A DNA stretch of 64,000 nt from an uncultured Ignavibacteriales bacterium (GTDB taxonomy: Bacteria; Bacteroidota; Ignavibacteria; Ignavibacteriales; Ignavibacteriaceae), in assembly GCA_903929035.1 (NCBI GenBank), contig CAIYTF010000038.1, forward strand, positions 1-64,000, given 5' to 3'. Shown here piece by piece: positions 5,307 to 21,424 of the stretch. The translations under genes were made by a program, and so were the position numbers. The notes under the pieces were generated by a model. The model ran no database searches. It saw only the letters and a program-made list of their open reading frames with translations, and was not told the DNA's origin. The number at the start of each line of letters is the position of its first letter. The stretch's first letter is position 1.

Positions 5307-6383
5307 ATGCAAATCGGACTAATCGGCTTTCAAAATTCAGGGAAAACTACTCTCTTTCAGACACTTACTTCAACTTTAGAAGGTACAGGCGAAAGCAAAT
5401 CATCATCCAAACGCGCGTTAGTAACTGTGCCCGATGCGCGGTTAGATAAATTAATAGCTCTTTTTAATCCGAAGAAACAAGCCTATGCCGCCTTAGAGTT
5501 TATGGATATCACGGGACTTTCTCTCGAAGACGAAAAAATTAAAATAACAGCCGATTTTCTGAATTCAGTAAAAAATAATGATGCACTTATTCATATTGTC
5601 AGGCAGTTTAGAAATGACAGTGTTCCCCATCCGAAAGAAACTGTTAACCCCCCGCGTGATATAGAATTTTTTGAAGTTGAATTTCTTCTTTCCGATCTTG
5701 CCCTCGTTGAGAAACGATTGGAAAAAATAGAAAAAGATATTTTAAAAGCTAAAAACGAGCAATTAGCAAAAGAACAGCCTGTATTTCTAAAATTAAAAGC
5801 GCATCTCGAAAATGAGCATCCGGTTAGGACGCTTTCGTTGGATGCGTCTGAATCCAAAATACTTTCAGGTTACCAATTCCTTACTGGAAAACCGCTCATA
5901 ATTGGAATTAATTGCGATGAGGATTCGAAAGACAAATCCGTCCAAATTGTTGCCGATTTGGAATCTCGTTTTGGAAAGGATAATTTCCCAATATTTCCGT
6001 TTTTTGCACAGTTTGAATATGAATTAGCCCAGCTTCCGGAAGATGAAGCAGAAATATTTAAATCAGATTTTGGAATTTCAGAATCAACTTTGGATACTAT
6101 ATTACGAACATCTTATGACTTATTAGGCTTACATTCTTTCTTTACTGTTGGTGAAGATGAATGCCGCGCTTGGACTATCAAAAAAAATATGACAGCACAG
6201 GATGCCGCCGGTACTATTCACACGGATTTCTATGCAAAGTTTATCCGCGCAGAAGTTGTTCACTATGAGGATTACTTGAAACACGGTTCTTTTCAGAAGT
6301 GCAAAGATGCAGGTGTTTGGCGGCTTGAAGGAAAAGAATATATAGTTAAAGATGGTGACATACTAAACATCAGGCATAGTTAA
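5307..6383 (+). CDS. YchF/OLA1-like P-loop GTPase or ATPase
   Basis: The 358-residue protein begins with an Obg-family P-loop, GFQNSGKTTLF (residues 7-17), and a G3-like segment FMDITGLSLEDE. A coiled-coil insertion follows (ALVEKRLEKIEKDILKAKNE). It ends in the TGS/DUF933 domain typical of YchF (FFTVGEDECRAWTIKK, AAGTIHTDFYAKFIRAEVV, YIVKDGDILNIRHS). Canonical YchF has NVGKST in the P-loop and a glycine-rich switch; here these are NSGKTT and a shortened switch, so this is a divergent member. YchF proteins bind ribosomes and prefer ATP over GTP; whether this one does is not decidable from sequence. Confidence 0.85.
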   Translation: MQIGLIGFQNSGKTTLFQTLTSTLEGTGESKSSSKRALVTVPDARLDKLIALFNPKKQAYAALEFMDITGLSLEDEKIKITADFLNSVKNNDALIHIVRQFRNDSVPHPKETVNPPRDIEFFEVEFLLSDLALVEKRLEKIEKDILKAKNEQLAKEQPVFLKLKAHLENEHPVRTLSLDASESKILSGYQFLTGKPLIIGINCDEDSKDKSVQIVADLESRFGKDNFPIFPFFAQFEYELAQLPEDEAEIFKSDFGISESTLDTILRTSYDLLGLHSFFTVGEDECRAWTIKKNMTAQDAAGTIHTDFYAKFIRAEVVHYEDYLKHGSFQKCKDAGVWRLEGKEYIVKDGDILNIRHS

Positions 6384-6452
6384 TTGCGAAATTGTGTTAC
6401 TCATAATTTGGCTATTTAGTTTTGTGAAAATACTCATCTGAGCTATAACCGG

Positions 6453-6573
6453 TGTAACTATTTTGGCTTTTTCAGGAGACCCTGCATAGAGTTACAATTT
6501 TTCTATGATGGGACTTGGCGGAAGTCGCAACTCTCCCGCCGCACCCAATTAGTAATGTCCAAGCTTCGCTTGG
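6453..6573. other. Intergenic region with three consecutive hairpin-forming inverted repeats
   Basis: Between the YchF-like gene and the 3' end of the T9SS operon are three inverted repeats. TGTAACT (6453-6459) pairs with AGTTACA (6490-6496) around a small internal CAGG/CCTG hairpin (6473-6484). GGCGG (6517-6521) pairs with CCGCC (6536-6540). CCAAGC-TTC-GCTTGG spans 6559-6573. The last could terminate the convergent transcripts, although no long T-run follows. The other two resemble decayed structured RNA or repeat sequence and I cannot assign them. Confidence 0.35.
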
Positions 6574-6576
6574 CAC

Positions 6577-8283
6577 TCATTTTGTTAAAATCATTTTTTT
6601 TGTCTGAACAAAACTCCCTGCCTGCAGTTTATAAAAATAAACTCCGGAAACTAATTTACTTCCATCAAAAGTAACATTGTAAGTTCCGGACTCTTGATAT
6701 CGGCTCACTAATGTCGCCGCTTCGCGCCCCATAATATCAAATACTTTCAGTGATACATATCCATAAGCAGGCACCTGATAATTAATCAAAGTACTTGGAT
6801 TAAACGGGTTTGGATAATTCTGAAATAATTCAAATTTTTTTGATGTCTGCTTTGCTTCATCAGCTTCATTTGTTGAATATTTTTCAACAAAGTCTCCTGG
6901 AACAATAGTTCTTCCGCTAAATGCCGAATACGTGATTGGATACCTATATACTCTGAATACGGAGTTCATTTTTTCTTCCGGACGAACAGGGTTATTCGGT
7001 AAAGTATCTCCCTGAGTTAGCGGGCCTGAATCGGTAACAGGATTTATATATTTCCATACCGTTTCACCGGAGGAAGTTACTTCCGTTAATGATCCAAACG
7101 GACCGGCACAAATAATAGTGTTTCCATTTGGCAGTCTTTGCGCTCCCGAAATATCGTGCGCGAAAAGAGAACTTGGCGGAGTTGCCTGATAACTCCAAGT
7201 GAAATAGGAAGGACCAAATGCAGAACCCGCGGTAAATGTATAATTTCCATTAGCATCTATAGGCGGAGTAATCTCGTCCACTGTTGAATAATTCCGCCCC
7301 ACACCGTTGTTAAAGCAAGTGAGATTCCCTGCACCGGGATTTCCGGGTCGTACCCATTCAACATCGTGCTGCTCAAAATACTTCTGATTGCTTACATTTC
7401 CGATTCCATAAGTTGAGGGATTTCCCCAACGGTAAAGAAGATCGCCGCCTTTTCCTCGCGCCCCTCCGGTGTGACCTTTTGCCTCAACAGTTGTAGTACT
7501 GTGGTCTATTATCCAAAGTTCGCTGTTACCCCTGACACTCATTACAATTTGGTCAAGTTCGGGATTGTAATCAATCGAATTCATATGATTCCAGAAAACA
7601 GGCAATTGCCTGTGATCGCCGGCAGCATCGATTAATTCCGGATGAGATTTCACAACGCCATAATTTAATTTTGCCGCATCAAATTCCTGAATCAAATGGT
7701 CCCACGTATGCCACTCCCATACAACGGTTCCCCCAATCGGTTTTGTCGGTTTAATTTCAGCGACATAATCGGGGAGCATCATTCCTTTTTGCGTGACTTC
7801 GGGCTGAAAATTTGCCGGATTAAATCCCGCGGCGATAATTTCCGCGTTAGTTTTTTTCTCGACAACCAACATTATAATATTCCCGTTTGGTAATAGTCTG
7901 ATGTCGTGATGCTGCATATATGTTGCGGTTGAAAAATCCAGACTCCACACGAGGCTGTCGCTCCAAGTATATTCTTCAATTCTCCCGCCTTCTCCTCCTC
8001 CGGTTCCGAGATTTCCTTGTGTCATACAAGTGCGAAGTATATTGCCGTTTTCAAGTAGATAAACTGACTGTCCGGGGGGATATTTACTTGCCGTCCATTT
8101 ATTTATGATTCTGCCTTCGTTATTGATTAGATAGGTCATCGTGTTTTGTTTGGGCGCGAACAACGTATAACCTTTGAACGCGCGTGCCGTGTCATTTATA
8201 ATTACGCCAATGGTTCTTGTTTGTCCAAAGACATTAACGGATAGAAGAATAATTATCGCGAAGAAAACAAGTTTGTGTTTCAT
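6577..8283 (-). CDS. Secreted arylsulfotransferase-like (ASST) beta-propeller protein with T9SS sorting tail
   Basis: I take the start at ATG 8283 (CGGA upstream; signal peptide MKHKLVFFAIIILLSVNVFGQ) rather than the in-frame ATG at 8298. The body is a beta-propeller of the ASST family: repeated blades ending in LPNGN/LENGN, with conserved histidines in HHDIRLLPNGN (about residue 125), NHMNSIDYN, QHDVEWV and HDISGAQRLPNGN. ASST enzymes transfer sulfate between phenolic compounds in the periplasm; this subgroup in Bacteroidota is uncharacterised and might act on other substrates. The last 85 or so residues are a Por secretion tail (FQNYPNPFNPSTLINYQVP to KMILTK), which predicts export by T9SS. 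It is the last gene of a four-gene operon and a paralogue of the gene at 10597. Confidence 0.8.
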   Translation of the reverse strand: MKHKLVFFAIIILLSVNVFGQTRTIGVIINDTARAFKGYTLFAPKQNTMTYLINNEGRIINKWTASKYPPGQSVYLLENGNILRTCMTQGNLGTGGGEGGRIEEYTWSDSLVWSLDFSTATYMQHHDIRLLPNGNIIMLVVEKKTNAEIIAAGFNPANFQPEVTQKGMMLPDYVAEIKPTKPIGGTVVWEWHTWDHLIQEFDAAKLNYGVVKSHPELIDAAGDHRQLPVFWNHMNSIDYNPELDQIVMSVRGNSELWIIDHSTTTVEAKGHTGGARGKGGDLLYRWGNPSTYGIGNVSNQKYFEQHDVEWVRPGNPGAGNLTCFNNGVGRNYSTVDEITPPIDANGNYTFTAGSAFGPSYFTWSYQATPPSSLFAHDISGAQRLPNGNTIICAGPFGSLTEVTSSGETVWKYINPVTDSGPLTQGDTLPNNPVRPEEKMNSVFRVYRYPITYSAFSGRTIVPGDFVEKYSTNEADEAKQTSKKFELFQNYPNPFNPSTLINYQVPAYGYVSLKVFDIMGREAATLVSRYQESGTYNVTFDGSKLVSGVYFYKLQAGSFVQTKKMILTK

Positions 8284-8314
8284 ATTATTTCCGATCATAA
8301 TTTATTTTAGATAG

Positions 8315-10579
8315 TTATTTAATGAGAAGCATTTTGATTGTTGATTGATGAAAACCATCAGAGAACCGACAAAAATAAATTCCGCTTGGCGCAGATTTTC
8401 CGTTCCAAACTTCTTTATGCCAGCCCGCGGTTTTTGTTCCATTTACCAATTTTATCACTTCTTGCCCGCGGCTGTTGCTAACCGTCAATGTAACAAAAGA
8501 GTTCAATGGCAGGAAATACCTAATAGAGGTTTCGGGATTAAACGGATTTGGATAATTCTGTTCTAACTTAAATTCATTCGGTTGAATATCTTTTTGATCA
8601 TATAATCCGGTCGATGCCGAGTAATTTCTAACAACTCGAAAGCCTATATGATACCAAGGGTGATTCGGGTCCTGCGGTCCGCGGTAATAAGACGGGTTCC
8701 TGTTAGAGACTCTCGAATGACCATCATTCACTCCATTAGTCACAAGCCCGTTATACCAGTTGCCGCCGCGCATTCCTCTGTATGGTTTCCCATCCAGCAT
8801 AATAAATCCAGAGTCTGGTCCTTTCGGATTGTCGTACGGACTGATACTGTAATAGTTTTGTCCGTACCAATCATTGACAAGCTCCCAGACATTACCTTCC
8901 ATATCGTACAAACCGTAAGAATTTGCGCCGTTAGTGGTCTGATAGCTTGCCGCGCTGCCGGGCCAATTGAAATCCGATTTTTGTTTCAAAGTACCATTGT
9001 AAAATCCAACGGGCGTTGTATATGGATATTCGCCTGTCTCGTAAGGGTCTCCTGAATTAGGTAGATTCACCATCGCGGTATCTATCGTGTTTCCATTAGG
9101 ATAATTTAAGTAAGGATTCAGATGCCCTCCTCTGGCAGCAAATTCCCATTCAGCTTCAGTAGGAAGACGATAGCCATTTTTTGTAAAATCACAGCTCCAT
9201 AAATTAAGGTTATAACACTCGTCCAAGCCATTCTGAACACTGAGCCAATTACAATAAGCAGCAGCACCATACCACATAACTCCAACCACTGGGTGATTTG
9301 ATCTGAAATCAGCCATCGCGAATACTTTCCCGTTGAAACTTATGCTATAATATGGAGCATACTGATTCGTGTATAGATATATATCGCTTCCTCCTATACC
9401 ATAAACGATGTTATTTCTTACTTCTATTAAGCCTTTGATAAAATAAGAGTTTAAAAAAGCAAGAAACTGTTGATTAGTAGTCTCGGTCTTTGCCATCAGG
9501 CAGGAATTTACTTTTACTAAATGAATCGGCGTTTCATCGCTCGGATGAGCGGGATCGACAAAATTAAAATGATCTCCCATTTGATACTCACCGCCTTGTA
9601 TGGTAATTTCAGAAATTCCTATGTCCGAATTATCTGTTCCGCCTCTGACTAATATAACATTTTGTTTAAGCGTTTTATCATTGTAAGAAACAATTCCGTA
9701 ATCTGTATTAATATCCCAAGCCTTAGCCGATGTATTAAACATTGTAGTAGAAGACCAAAAGTTTCCTGATAGCACATTTGGAAAATATGATTTATCGAAT
9801 GCCGGTTTATACAATTTTTCATCGTTTAACGATTGCAGTTCTTTTATATTCGGCAGTCTCCAGTCTGTTTTCCCCGCTAATGAATATGTTCCGCTGTAAG
9901 CCAAGGATTCTTCCCAAGTCATTGGATTTTGAGATTGAATTTTTTGCCAAATGAGACCAGTATAATTATCGGTGATAGTTCCATTCCCGTTATCAGAAAA
10001 ATGAGTAATGGAAAATATTGTTGAGAATATATTCCTCACTGCTCTTACATTAAAGCGTTTTGTTCCGCCTGTGCCAATAGTTTCTGTTTTAGGATGCGCA
10101 CCTATTCCGCCCCCTGCATTAACTACCCATATTTTTGTTGAATCATCTATTTGTTTATCACTCGTCCACCAATAATCTGCTGTTGTTTTTGTAAAATACA
10201 AAGTATCTAACGCGGGGTTAAGAGTATTATAATTATTAATGCTAAATAATTCGCTGCTGGTTGGAAGCCGCCAATCATTATAGTTAACCAAATTTAGATT
10301 CCTGCAATAGGCAGCAGCACTTTCAAACACCATTTCGCCGCCGTCAACTTTTTGCCACATTAACCCTGTATTGTTATCGGTTATTGTTCCATTGCCATTG
10401 TCTGTATAAGAAAGCGGGTTTATGGAGTAGTCGGAATCCTCTCCTTTTGTAGTTGTGTAACCGCTTGTTTGTCCTGTATCAGGCAATTTAAAAGGGAGCA
10501 GTTTTTGAGCCTCTAAACGAGGTAGAAACATAGTTATTATCAACAAGATAAATATATTTAAGTTTGAAAAACAGAACAT
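8315..10579 (-). CDS. Secreted protein with two Lcl/DUF1566 domains, an FGE-sulfatase (SUMF1-like) domain and a T9SS tail
   Basis: The frame extends to 10624, but the ATG at 10579 has AGAGG six bases upstream and starts a clean signal peptide (MFCFSNLNIFILLIITMFL), so it is the likely start (754 aa) and removes an overlap with the upstream gene. Two DUF1566 repeats follow (TDNGNGTITDNNTGLMWQK and SDNGNGTITDNYTGLIWQK, each with a WRLP motif). Then comes an FGE-sulfatase fold (GGEYQMGD, TETTNQQFLAFLNSY, GYRLPTEAEWEFAARGG, YDMEGNVWELVNDWY, HIGFRVVRN). The family includes formylglycine-generating enzymes, but the C-terminal region holding their paired active-site cysteines (MRGGNWYNGLVTNG onward) has none, so catalytic FGE activity is unlikely and a binding role is more probable. 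It ends in a YPNPFNPETSIRY sorting tail. Confidence 0.85.
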   Translation of the reverse strand: MFCFSNLNIFILLIITMFLPRLEAQKLLPFKLPDTGQTSGYTTTKGEDSDYSINPLSYTDNGNGTITDNNTGLMWQKVDGGEMVFESAAAYCRNLNLVNYNDWRLPTSSELFSINNYNTLNPALDTLYFTKTTADYWWTSDKQIDDSTKIWVVNAGGGIGAHPKTETIGTGGTKRFNVRAVRNIFSTIFSITHFSDNGNGTITDNYTGLIWQKIQSQNPMTWEESLAYSGTYSLAGKTDWRLPNIKELQSLNDEKLYKPAFDKSYFPNVLSGNFWSSTTMFNTSAKAWDINTDYGIVSYNDKTLKQNVILVRGGTDNSDIGISEITIQGGEYQMGDHFNFVDPAHPSDETPIHLVKVNSCLMAKTETTNQQFLAFLNSYFIKGLIEVRNNIVYGIGGSDIYLYTNQYAPYYSISFNGKVFAMADFRSNHPVVGVMWYGAAAYCNWLSVQNGLDECYNLNLWSCDFTKNGYRLPTEAEWEFAARGGHLNPYLNYPNGNTIDTAMVNLPNSGDPYETGEYPYTTPVGFYNGTLKQKSDFNWPGSAASYQTTNGANSYGLYDMEGNVWELVNDWYGQNYYSISPYDNPKGPDSGFIMLDGKPYRGMRGGNWYNGLVTNGVNDGHSRVSNRNPSYYRGPQDPNHPWYHIGFRVVRNYSASTGLYDQKDIQPNEFKLEQNYPNPFNPETSIRYFLPLNSFVTLTVSNSRGQEVIKLVNGTKTAGWHKEVWNGKSAPSGIYFCRFSDGFHQSTIKMLLIK

Positions 10580-10596
10580 CCTATACCTCTTTTGTA

Positions 10597-12267
10597 TCAT
10601 TTCAGACAAATCATTTTTACGCATTTTGAAAAACCGCCGATTGTGATTCTGTAATAATATATACCGCTCGGGATTGAAAACTTATCCGCGTTAAATGAAA
10701 CCGTATATGTTCCCTGCTGTTGAAAATCGTTAACAAGCGTTGCCACTTCTCTCCCCATCGTATCGAACACTTTTAAGAGAACATTTCCCGTTTTGGGAAC
10801 ATCGTACCGAATGGATGTTTCGGGATTAAACGGGTTTGGATAATTCTGATATAGCTTAAAATCTCCAATAGAGCTAACATCATTCTCAATCGCGCTTGGA
10901 AGTTCAATCGGTCCAACGGGAGTTAAAACTTTTCCTGACAAACCGGAATAGGTCGGCGCATAACGATAGATTTTAAAAACCATATTATCTGTGGGAGTTT
11001 CACCCTGAGAAAAAATTCTTGCTGCAACCGGATTCATATAGGTCCACACGATCTGTTTGGAAGAATCAACCTCGAAAAATTTTCCTTTCGGTCCTTCGCA
11101 AATGAGAGAATTACCGTTTTGCAACCGTGTTGCGCCAGAAATGTTTTCAGCATAAAAGGAAGTATCAGGATTGGCTACAAACGACCAAGCTGTAACAGAT
11201 GGTCCGTAAGCAGAATCCTGCTCTCTTATATACGAACCATCCGTTGCCAAGGGCGGGATAATTTCTTCAATTGAAGAATACACTCTTCCCGGCCTTTTTG
11301 TCCCGTTATTAAATATCAAAATATTCCCTGCTCCCTGTAATCCGTTATCTATCCATCTCGCGTCGTGCTGAGAATATAGCTTTTGATTCGTGGCAGTTCC
11401 TAATTTATATGCTAAAGGATTTCCCCATCGATAAAGCAAGTCACCGCCTTTCCCCCGATTGCCTCCGGAATGTCCCGCCGCCTGAGCGGTAGTTGTGCTG
11501 TGATCTATTATCCAGAATTCGTGTATCGCGTGAACACTGACCATTATTTCGTCCCTGTCCGAATTATATCTGATTGAATTAAAATGAAGCCAATCCACTT
11601 TTTTATCACCGTAGTTGATGTTGAATAATCCAGGACGCGATGAAACGATTCCGTAATTTGCTTTGGAACTGTCAAAATCCTGAACCAGATGATCCCAAAT
11701 ATGCCATTCCCATATTATTGTTCCGCCGCCGGACACTTTGTCCGGTTGGACTTCAATAATTTTTTCCGACCAAACTTCCGCGTAAGTTGCTTTAGCAGTG
11801 TCACGTCCGGCGGCAACCACTTCGGCTAAAGTCTTTTTCTCCCACGCGATCATTAGAATATTTCCGTTCGGCATATATTCGATGTCGTGATGAGTGCTAT
11901 AAAGATTTCCGAAATGTTCGAAATACCAAATTAAATTACCGTTCCAGTCAAATAGCTCAACTCTTCCGCCGACACCACCCTGAACAAAATGATTGCCTGC
12001 ACCCACCATTGCTGTCCGCAAAAGATTGCCATCGGAAAGGAGCATCACGGACTGCCCGGGCTGATACGAGCTGTTCCACGAGTGAACTAACATTCCATTC
12101 ATATTGATTAAATATGTTTTTGTGGATTTTAAGGGAGTGAAAAGAGTATATCCCGCGAACGCTTTCGTGGTGTCGTAAAAAAGCAGACCAACAGTGTTAG
12201 TTTGTCCAAAGGCGATTCCTGCAAAGTGCCAAAAAAACAGCATAATTATAGATATTTTCGTTTTCAT
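10597..12267 (-). CDS. Secreted arylsulfotransferase-like (ASST) beta-propeller protein with T9SS sorting tail (second copy)
   Basis: The 556-residue protein has a signal peptide (MKTKISIIMLFFWHFAGIAFGQ) and the same propeller and histidine motifs as the gene at 6577: HHDIEYMPNGN, LHFNSIRYN, SQHDARWID, and EFWIIDHSTTTAQAAGHSGG. It closes with FKLYQNYPNPFNPETSIRY and KMICLK, a T9SS tail. The strong similarity throughout shows the two genes arose by duplication, with the FGE-like gene now between them. The sulfotransferase role is inferred from the fold only. Gaps of 17-30 bp on each side support co-transcription. Confidence 0.8.
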   Translation of the reverse strand: MKTKISIIMLFFWHFAGIAFGQTNTVGLLFYDTTKAFAGYTLFTPLKSTKTYLINMNGMLVHSWNSSYQPGQSVMLLSDGNLLRTAMVGAGNHFVQGGVGGRVELFDWNGNLIWYFEHFGNLYSTHHDIEYMPNGNILMIAWEKKTLAEVVAAGRDTAKATYAEVWSEKIIEVQPDKVSGGGTIIWEWHIWDHLVQDFDSSKANYGIVSSRPGLFNINYGDKKVDWLHFNSIRYNSDRDEIMVSVHAIHEFWIIDHSTTTAQAAGHSGGNRGKGGDLLYRWGNPLAYKLGTATNQKLYSQHDARWIDNGLQGAGNILIFNNGTKRPGRVYSSIEEIIPPLATDGSYIREQDSAYGPSVTAWSFVANPDTSFYAENISGATRLQNGNSLICEGPKGKFFEVDSSKQIVWTYMNPVAARIFSQGETPTDNMVFKIYRYAPTYSGLSGKVLTPVGPIELPSAIENDVSSIGDFKLYQNYPNPFNPETSIRYDVPKTGNVLLKVFDTMGREVATLVNDFQQQGTYTVSFNADKFSIPSGIYYYRITIGGFSKCVKMICLK

Positions 12268-19627: not shown

Positions 19628-21424
19628 CTATTCGTGTTTAACCATAAAAATACTGCACAGCTCGTTATGGAGATGCTCAATTTCCTGCATAAAGTCGCCT
19701 TTGAAATGCGAATATTTATCTTTATAAGAAGAATAAAGTTTTTTATAATACTCTATTCCGTCACAAAGGTTATCCTTAAATGTCTCAAAATACTTAGCCT
19801 GCTTATCGGAAATAACGGTACCGTTTTCTTCTATAAGGTTTCTTAGATAATCTATATATACTTGAAGCTCTTTTACGAAAAAGTTTGGCCGTTTTTCCTC
19901 ATCAATGTAATTAGCCCGCCCGTAGATGTGGTCAACCATTTGTTTTAAAGTAAGTATCTTGTCAAAATATGCCATATTGGGTCCTGGGCATACAGAAACA
20001 CCGGTATTGGTTCCCTTTATTTCCAAGTTATTTTTCAAGAGTGCTGCATTGGCTAAACCAATACACAGGCACGCTTTATCGACTATTTTTGAGTATGCCG
20101 CTTTCTTTTCGGATTCAGGCAGATCCTTAGCTTCAAGTTCCTTTATTTTTAGATTTTGATACTGCCTTGAAGCAGTGCATATCGATATTTTAGTGAACTC
20201 TTTATTGGAGACAAGATATTTTTTTGGGCAAGAACTGCCGGGTCTCCCTTTATTAATTAATTCTTGTTTATCCAAATCCTGAGAGTTATTTCTAACACTG
20301 TTAAACGGAACACCCAGAGGTGATATATTGCTCAAATAAAGATCGGATTCCTTTGCATCGCGAAGTAATTCAAGTGTATCATTATCAACATTAACAACTT
20401 CCGGCACCAATAAAAACGGAGTTCCCCAGCCCACGGACTGAAGTTCATAATAATCCAGCAAAAAATGATGTTCGTTGTTTGTCCCAACGCCCCCCTGCGC
20501 TGTAATCTTTATATTCATCGGATGCCCGGGAATCGCGCGATTTTTACTTTTTAATGCTTCAACCAGTATCTTATGTATTGTCTCTATCAATTCCTCGCGC
20601 CGATTTTTGAATTCCTCGAGAATAGGACCCATTAAAAACCCATCGCTCGCGAAAGCGTGCCCGCCACAGTTTAATCCTGATTCAATTCTAAATTCCGAGA
20701 CCCAAATCCCCTTCTTTGCCAAGAATTTACCCTGAATAATAGCTGACCGATAGTCGCTGACCTTTAAGATAATTTTTTTTCGCAGCATACCGGTACTGTC
20801 AGGATAGAAATCATCGAATTTTTCAAGATAACTGTAAAGACGCGGATTCATTCCGGCAGATAGAACAAGAGAAGAAGATAAGTTACTGTTTGCAAATCCG
20901 CGCAACGCGGCGTGAGCATCATTAAATTCTATCGGCAATGCTTCATCGTCAATATAGTTCTCGGCATCTAATTTCGTCATAATATTAACATCAATGCTGC
21001 CAATATTAATATTATCTTTAATCCACGCCTGTATATCTTTTTTTAGAGTAGTCCCGTTTTCAAGTAACTCGTTAAATTTTTTCTTCACTTCAGAATAATC
21101 AGGGAGTAAATCCATATATTTTTGAATATCATCTTTTGTCCCGATCCTATCGGAGATGGAATTTTTAATCTCCTCAAACTTTTCAGTCACGATCCGATCA
21201 ATCAGATTTAGATAATTAGTTATTCTCTCTGCTCTAAAATCTTTCATTTTCTCTGAAATGGCAGAATAAGGAATCCCTATTTTGTTGCAGTAATACTCCC
21301 TCATTTTTTCAATCAAGTTATCATCAACTATAGATATGACAGACGAAATACCAAAAGGAGCTACCTTTACCGGAGTATCAACGGTAAACCCAAGTCCCAT
21401 TACGGGAATATGAAATGAATGCAT
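19628..21424 (-). CDS. Conserved uncharacterised 598-residue protein, possible TIM-barrel flavoprotein with cysteine motifs
   Basis: AAGGAA lies ten bases before the ATG. The N-terminus is MHSFHIPVMGLGFTVDTP followed by KVAPFGISSVISI. I recall related proteins in Bacteroidota annotated only as hypothetical. The phrase KITAQGGVGTNNEHHFLL and the start (PVMGLGFTVDTPVKVA) resemble nitronate monooxygenase/glutamate synthase-type FMN barrels, but this is only suggestive. Eleven cysteines include a C-terminal series (SSCPKKY, ICTASRQYQ, ACLCIGLANAAL, VCPGPNMAYF) that could hold an iron-sulfur cluster. The middle (about 80-170) and the C-terminal 100 residues are helical and charged. There are no membrane segments, so it should be cytoplasmic. 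Confidence 0.75.
   Translation of the reverse strand: MHSFHIPVMGLGFTVDTPVKVAPFGISSVISIVDDNLIEKMREYYCNKIGIPYSAISEKMKDFRAERITNYLNLIDRIVTEKFEEIKNSISDRIGTKDDIQKYMDLLPDYSEVKKKFNELLENGTTLKKDIQAWIKDNINIGSIDVNIMTKLDAENYIDDEALPIEFNDAHAALRGFANSNLSSSLVLSAGMNPRLYSYLEKFDDFYPDSTGMLRKKIILKVSDYRSAIIQGKFLAKKGIWVSEFRIESGLNCGGHAFASDGFLMGPILEEFKNRREELIETIHKILVEALKSKNRAIPGHPMNIKITAQGGVGTNNEHHFLLDYYELQSVGWGTPFLLVPEVVNVDNDTLELLRDAKESDLYLSNISPLGVPFNSVRNNSQDLDKQELINKGRPGSSCPKKYLVSNKEFTKISICTASRQYQNLKIKELEAKDLPESEKKAAYSKIVDKACLCIGLANAALLKNNLEIKGTNTGVSVCPGPNMAYFDKILTLKQMVDHIYGRANYIDEEKRPNFFVKELQVYIDYLRNLIEENGTVISDKQAKYFETFKDNLCDGIEYYKKLYSSYKDKYSHFKGDFMQEIEHLHNELCSIFMVKHE

Follow-up and report, generated by a model that had tools for sequence, protein, structure and literature searches.

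A predicted FabX-like flavin-barrel protein family of Bacteroidota with invariant cysteines and a possible part in oxygen-independent unsaturated fatty acid synthesis

What positions 19628-21424 encode, and what the product might do, is the question raised by this part of the window, the 64,000-nucleotide stretch of DNA from an uncultured Ignavibacteriales bacterium that was analyzed here. The original prediction, made from the letters alone, was of a large conserved protein with motifs recalling FMN-dependent TIM barrels and with a series of cysteines that could hold an iron-sulfur cluster, a combination that would amount to an uncharacterized redox enzyme. Here, the reading frame, its relatives, its predicted fold, and its genomic surroundings are considered in turn.

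The open reading frame and its distribution

The reading frame, whose product is referred to as P0001, was found to be real. It lies on the minus strand, which the original prediction had left unstated, and starts with an ATG at 21424 and ends with a stop at 19628, encoding 598 amino acids plus the stop; the plus strand of the same positions is packed with stops. All of the motifs that had been quoted are present, with PVMGLGFTVDTP at residues 7-18, KITAQGGVGT at 306-315, and SSCPKK, CLCIG, and VCPGPN containing C399, C452/C454, and C479, respectively (Table 1). Family matches were found in 37 of 59 relatives and in 112 of the 296 Bacteroidota genomes sampled (the window's own counted), nearly all of them full length (530-598 aligned residues), so the frame is not a product of chance. 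Identity to P0001 across these matches, the window's own excepted, is 46-73%.

When species genomes were scanned, 593 candidate stretches came up, of which 581 were confirmed; the best 80 of the 581 were taken. Among the matches listed, the closest named relative is an Ignavibacteria record (73% identity), and named isolates belong to Arenibacter, Aquimarina, Maribacter, Tenacibaculum, and Cellulophaga. Three further homologues among the matches listed (L062, L094, and L110; 56-59% identical) come from metagenome bins labeled Calditrichota, Sumerlaeota, and Planctomycetota, which may reflect transfer or mislabeled bins. Searches of plasmids and phages gave no match to the family. One genome (G142, C1:4371176-4372865) has a second, broken copy that was matched piecewise, one of the pieces having in-frame stops.

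By sequence, P0001 falls into no known family. Pfam and NCBIfam profile searches of P0001 and 49 members gave no family above cut-off, and the matches below cut-off, to coiled-coil-like and unrelated models, were rejected. The nitronate monooxygenase superfamily profile (PF03060) gave no match for P0001 up to E 10, and at E ≤ 1 it did not rank among the 25 families matched most often by the 49 members; the hybrid cluster protein profile (TIGR01703) matched 3 of the 49, with a best E of 0.031. Sequence and profile searches of solved structures in the PDB likewise returned no significant match to the family. The PDB sequence matches seen were mostly apolipoprotein-like, fell on the C-terminal helices, and were rejected as composition; one further match was dismissed as chance. 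No paper on the family was found in literature searches.

Table 1. Features of the P0001 gene in the window
Feature	Positions	Strand	Basis
FabX-like flavin barrel protein P0001, open reading frame	19628..21424	-	ORF call and homologues
Predicted TIM-barrel part, residues 1-375	20300..21424	-	AlphaFold2 model, Foldseek/VIA
Barrel strands: E28-31, E144-148, E185-188, E217-222, E244-248, E306-310, E330-332, E362-365			predicted model
Helical insertion, residues 35-138, far longer than that of FabX	21011..21322	-	model and alignment
ESGLNCGGHAFASDG, residues 248-262, with invariant C253 and H256	20639..20683	-	alignments
QGGVG, residues 310-314, aligned with AAGGI of FabX-type sequences	20483..20497	-	alignment
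GWGTPF, residues 332-337, aligned with QMGTRF of FabX-type sequences	20414..20431	-	alignment
Cysteine-rich part, residues 396-486: C399, C416, C452, C454, C479	19967..20239	-	alignments
C-terminal helical extension, residues 512-598, outside the FabX match	19631..19891	-	model, VIA

Predicted fold

An AlphaFold2 model computed on 81 sequences (pLDDT 88.4, pTM 0.90) bore out the guess of a flavin barrel, matching barrels of the nitronate monooxygenase superfamily in both Foldseek and VIA comparisons. In the PDB, Foldseek found 30 chains with an E of 1e-3 or lower. PfaD and the trans-acting enoyl reductases (4z9r and 4cw5; E 2.9e-9 and 6.8e-9) headed them; these enzymes are FMN TIM barrels, as is predicted for P0001, and are not known to carry an iron-sulfur cluster. 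Also matched were the enoyl reductases DfnA/MlnA as well as FabK, nitronate monooxygenase, and PA1024, and some chains of DAHP synthase and fatty acid synthase came in close to the threshold.

On re-alignment with VIA, FabX of Helicobacter pylori (HP0773; PDB 7e1q) ranked 1 of 999 chains, with a Z of 24.6 and an rmsd of 3.1 over 327 residues, at about 19% identity and with no significant sequence match. Lower Z values were obtained for PfaD and the trans-acting enoyl reductases (22.9 and 21.2), FabK enoyl-ACP reductase II (about 21-22), nitronate monooxygenase (2gjl; about 20-21), and IMPDH (16.5), the FabK and monooxygenase chains sharing the barrel fold with P0001. The lead of FabX over PfaD is small (1.7 Z units), yet FabX is also highest in identity, at 19-21% over its entries versus 12-17% for other rows of the superfamily. 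Model residues 1-503 are aligned with FabX 16-363 in this match, so the last 95 residues of P0001, the helical extension, are outside it; in the 598 residues of P0001, versus 363 in FabX, the long helical insertion is the other addition. Glutamate synthase, which had been proposed as a comparison, is not among the 50 Foldseek/VIA rows listed, an absence that excludes nothing. The model makes it very probable that P0001 is an FMN-type TIM barrel of the nitronate monooxygenase superfamily with FabX as its nearest relative in fold.

Conserved residues and the cysteine-rich part

C253, C399, C416, C452, C454, and C479 are invariant in both alignments made (49/49 and 81/81 sequences), as is H256, a conserved catalytic-type histidine after GG. 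Other invariant positions in the 49- and 81-sequence alignments are N147, E248, G311, G312, G332, and W333; C46, C554, and C590 of P0001 are not conserved among the 49. The four cysteines quoted in the original prediction are therefore conserved throughout, and two more, C416 and the C253 of a CGGH motif, had been missed. The prediction was to fall with a fold unrelated to TIM barrels and cysteines that vary among homologues; the model gave a TIM barrel, and the cysteines do not vary.

According to published work on FabX (PMC8626469), FMN is held by Asn-99, Glu-175, Gln-240, and Thr-243 among others, with Gly-220/Gly-221 also in contact, and His-182 is catalytic. Cys-300, Cys-304, Cys-308, and Cys-320 of the C-terminal subdomain (267-363) hold a [4Fe-4S] cluster, which stands in place of the NAD(P)H motif of FabK, and the enzyme dehydrogenates acyl-ACP for unsaturated fatty acid synthesis (PMC8626469). 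P0001 was compared with FabX-type sequences in a MAFFT alignment that included a random draw of 24 of the 48 other P0001-family sequences. N147, H256, G311, and T335 coincide with FMN or catalytic residues of FabX, T335 with the FMN-contact Thr and H256 with the catalytic His, whereas E248 is shifted by one position from the FabX Glu. SPLGVP and GPN also fall on FMN or catalytic positions, GPN on a GAN near the FMN. The two proteins thus have in common the catalytic His, the FMN-contact Asn, Gly, and Thr, the SP-G-P turn, and a cysteine-rich part C-terminal to the barrel. The claim of FabX-likeness is carried by the structure, and the sequence is consistent with it.

Among the cysteines of P0001, only C399 and C416 align with cysteines of FabX, and C452/C454 lie within an insertion. 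The spacing in P0001 is C399 x16 C416 x35 C452 x C454 x24 C479; that of the FabX ligands, C300 x3 C304 x3 C308 x11 C320, is not found among its invariant cysteines, and P0001 is not filed as a FabX. The nearest fold, FabX, carries FMN and [4Fe-4S] together (PMC8626469), which supports the original idea of a barrel combined with a cluster. P0001 likely contains both cofactors, the cluster most probably being a [4Fe-4S] center next to the flavin and held by the cysteine-rich part, with its individual cysteine ligands putative.

A second FabX-like family

A PF03060 search of Bacteroidota genomes led to a family of about 420 amino acids, A4 (L177-L183 and L185-L188, from families f24/f22), which unlike P0001 matches this profile (E about 1e-21 to 1e-30) and has FabX as its best solved relative (E 7e-28). 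A4 was found in 62 of the 296 genomes, nearly all of one family, and two further genomes have a FabX-type gene (L237 and L238), giving 64 FabX/A4-type genomes. None of these is among the 112 genomes with the P0001 family. Although A4 is shorter than P0001 and has an extra CxxC (CWTCG), it shares the barrel motifs and the same order of four cysteines, C...C...CxC (PNC...GKC...TCLCTG). The arrangement in A4 is unlike that of FabX and could represent another variant of the cluster.

An hhalign comparison of the P0001 family with A4 covered 258 columns at 26% identity. Blind to the cysteines, it paired C399, C416, C452, and C454 with the four A4 cysteines, and GGH, QGGVG, GWGTPF, and SPLGVP with their A4 counterparts. 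The score against A4 was weak at 27.1 over 284 columns, the best of 60 column-shuffled decoys reaching 25.8 over 19 columns; decoy alignments were short, the longest having 121 columns. A score of 33.7 against FabK-type nitronate monooxygenase proteins extended over only 30 columns, out of register with the motifs, and was rejected. FabK-type sequences (L130-L143), unlike P0001, are without the cysteine-rich part. C253 and C479 of P0001 have no counterpart in A4 or FabX sequences.

Gene neighborhoods

Within the window, the same-strand neighbors, which we take to be a glycosyltransferase and an M24-type peptidase upstream and chorismate synthase downstream, say little about the role of P0001. 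Elsewhere the family has no universal partner gene, and genes for low oxygen or N-oxides recur beside it across families. In 12 genomes of family f30 (including G113, locus L200), the gene that immediately precedes the homologue on its strand is RIC, often accompanied by HemN and Rrf2. At L105, the family gene is found with genes for a NOR-type oxidase subunit, NirK, NirV-like, SCO1-like, and NorQ/NorD/NorE-like proteins, Rrf2, NadA, NadB, an NnrS-like protein, and RIC; at L122, NrdG-NrdD are immediately upstream. In the four loci fetched from family f20 (L259-L262; the homologue of L262 is open reading frame 5404-7176), cbb3-oxidase ccoNO/FixI genes adjoin the homologue. Several upstream regions of L259-L262 have loose FNR-like sites.

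The names NirV, NnrS-like, SCO1, NorQ, NorD, NorE, and FixI are presumed readings of these neighbors. Profile searches confirmed NirK, RIC, Rrf2, NadA, HemN, NrdD, NrdG, NorB of L066, and cbb3 CcoNO. Matches were only general for the NirV-, NorQ-, NorE-, and FixI-like proteins, as they were for the NOR-type subunit at L105, and the SCO1-like, NorD-like, and NnrS-like neighbors had none.

Twelve loci (L239-L250) had been chosen for RIC adjoining the gene and were kept apart from the 148 others. At least one of ten labeled anaerobic or N-oxide gene kinds was found within five genes in 24 of the 148 (14 of 80 in set A, 4 of 40 in set B, and 6 of 28 in set D), raw counts among which only set D is independent, as the labels were seeded from sets A and B after inspection. 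Seven of the 12 RIC-chosen loci, and 4 of the 148 others (L077, L108, L200, and L252), have HemN no more than five genes away. RIC itself was found in 76 of 112 genomes with the family gene versus 41 of 184 without it in a strict set from which 21 genomes with weak RIC matches had been dropped by hand (82/112 versus 56/184 undropped). The Fisher p of this co-occurrence, which ignores phylogeny, was 8e-15 in the strict set and 3e-7 without the 64 FabX/A4-type genomes. No RIC match was found in the window genome.

NadA was seen within five genes in 16 of 80 named loci (L050-L129, +1/+2) but in 1 of 40 diverse loci, and NadB in 15 of 120. As conserved-operon partners the two were rejected, since they are common only in the Flavobacteriaceae-rich first set. 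At the loci examined, no recurring fatty-acid gene was found next to P0001 homologues.

An upstream palindrome

A blind palindrome scan of upstream regions yielded TGAYANNTRTCA, which we take to resemble CRP/FNR-type sites. It was present upstream of 30 of 141 distinct homologues versus 14 of 1362 other genes at the same loci, with a shuffle mean of 0.2. The 14 include NirK (twice), RIC, HemN (twice), FixI-like (twice), and NnrS-like genes, and three PEP-carboxylase rows whose intergenic region is common with the family gene. Another 40 loci, mostly from other families, gave only 1 strict match and 6 loose ones (loose matches in 22 of 382 control genes); the palindrome is therefore a Flavobacteriaceae-type feature rather than a general one, its bearers being presumed to be of that type from their named records. 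The window gene has no TGAYANNTRTCA upstream. The neighborhoods, together with the palindrome in Flavobacteriaceae-type loci, support the view that the family belongs to the equipment of Bacteroidota for low oxygen, denitrification, and NO exposure.

Distribution of FabA, FabX-like, and desaturase genes

Only 3 of the 296 genomes have a match to FabA (TIGR01749). No genome of the 296 carries two of FabA, a FabX/A4-type gene, and the P0001 family. This disjoint pattern, which is strongly clustered by clade, fits loosely with the role of an oxygen-independent counterpart. A fatty acid desaturase family member (PF00487) was matched in 87 of the 112 carriers, which argues against a fatty-acid role, and in only one of the 64 FabX/A4-type genomes. 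It is absent from 25 carriers, among them the window genome, where neither FabA nor the desaturase was matched. A gonococcal FabX homologue was reportedly linked to anaerobic conditions by Isabella and Clark in 2011. PMC11300592 describes a FabX of gut Bacteroidales, citing a homologue in Neisseria as needed for anaerobic unsaturated fatty-acid synthesis, its electron acceptor unknown.

Proposed role and alternatives

Since the gene is often found among genes for anaerobic life, its product may help to make unsaturated fats without oxygen. The family would accordingly be an anoxia- or NO-linked FabX-like acyl-ACP dehydrogenase(-isomerase), a proposal in which the fold is well supported and the substrate is hypothetical. 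By analogy with FabX, a saturated acyl-ACP would lose two hydrogens by 2,3-dehydrogenation at the FMN with H256 as the catalytic residue, the trans-2 double bond might then be isomerized to cis-3, and the electrons would pass through the iron-sulfur cluster to an acceptor. Unsaturated fatty acids would thus arise without an oxygen-dependent desaturase. The acyl-ACP substrate, the direction of the reaction, and the role of an electron acceptor are all inferred. As a whole, the picture of a FabX-like enzyme with FMN and a cluster, a low-oxygen or NO setting, and a part in fatty acid synthesis has close to an even chance of being right. A more tentative suggestion, somewhat doubtful as it stands, is that much of the Bacteroidota relies on this family to make unsaturated fatty acids without oxygen. 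The family would then supply the enzyme that is missing there, adding to FabA and FabX a third solution in which the cluster is bound by a cysteine pattern of a different kind, and it would be induced together with denitrification and microaerobic respiration.

The same neighbors could be read differently. RIC, NirK, NOR, NnrS-like, and Rrf2 genes would be explained if P0001, with its superfamily fold and catalytic His, were a detoxifying flavoenzyme that acts on nitronates, nitro compounds, or NO-related products of nitrosative stress. This is unlikely: FabX rather than nitronate monooxygenase is nearest in fold, the cbb3-oxidase and NrdDG neighbors point to low oxygen and not to NO, and the gene is present in the window genome despite the missing RIC match. 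Other characterized members of the nitronate monooxygenase family are described as having no iron-sulfur cluster (PMC8626469). The HemN genes within five genes of the homologues, together with the palindrome that HemN has in two loci, raise the thought of an oxygen-independent dehydrogenase of another pathway, such as porphyrinogen oxidation after HemN or quinone or lipid modification; the relatives in fold act on acyl-ACP or nitronates, however, and as FNR-type regulons commonly include HemN, its proximity may only reflect shared regulation. We regard such a role as improbable.

Equally improbable is an enoyl-ACP reductase of the FabK or PfaD kind, which would reduce its substrate with electrons that enter from ferredoxin through the cluster in place of NAD(P)H. 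The best Foldseek E-values, to PfaD, DfnA/MlnA, and FabK, favor it, whereas FabX ranks first in VIA and carriers such as G041 and G043 have FabK-type proteins as well (L130 and L131). The cysteines, finally, might belong to a plain flavin barrel in which they bind zinc or serve as redox thiols, as their FabX-unlike spacing and the unpaired C253 and C479 would allow. With the cysteine-rich part sitting where FabX has its cluster subdomain, and the order of four cysteines common to A4, this is slightly less probable still.

If the FabX-like acyl-ACP dehydrogenase proposal is right, the family offers a testable candidate for oxygen-free unsaturated lipid synthesis in Bacteroidota and would show another way of fitting an iron-sulfur cluster into a nitronate monooxygenase barrel. 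A family that more than one-third of the Bacteroidota species sampled carry, and that has no Pfam or NCBIfam entry, would then have a fold, two likely cofactors, and a physiological context assigned to it.

Other genes in the window

On the minus strand of the window, 6577-8298 and 10597-12267 encode two related large proteins of secreted appearance with YQNYPNPFNP sorting-like tails. A third protein with a tail of this type lies between them at 8315-10624, and the group looks like a local duplication.
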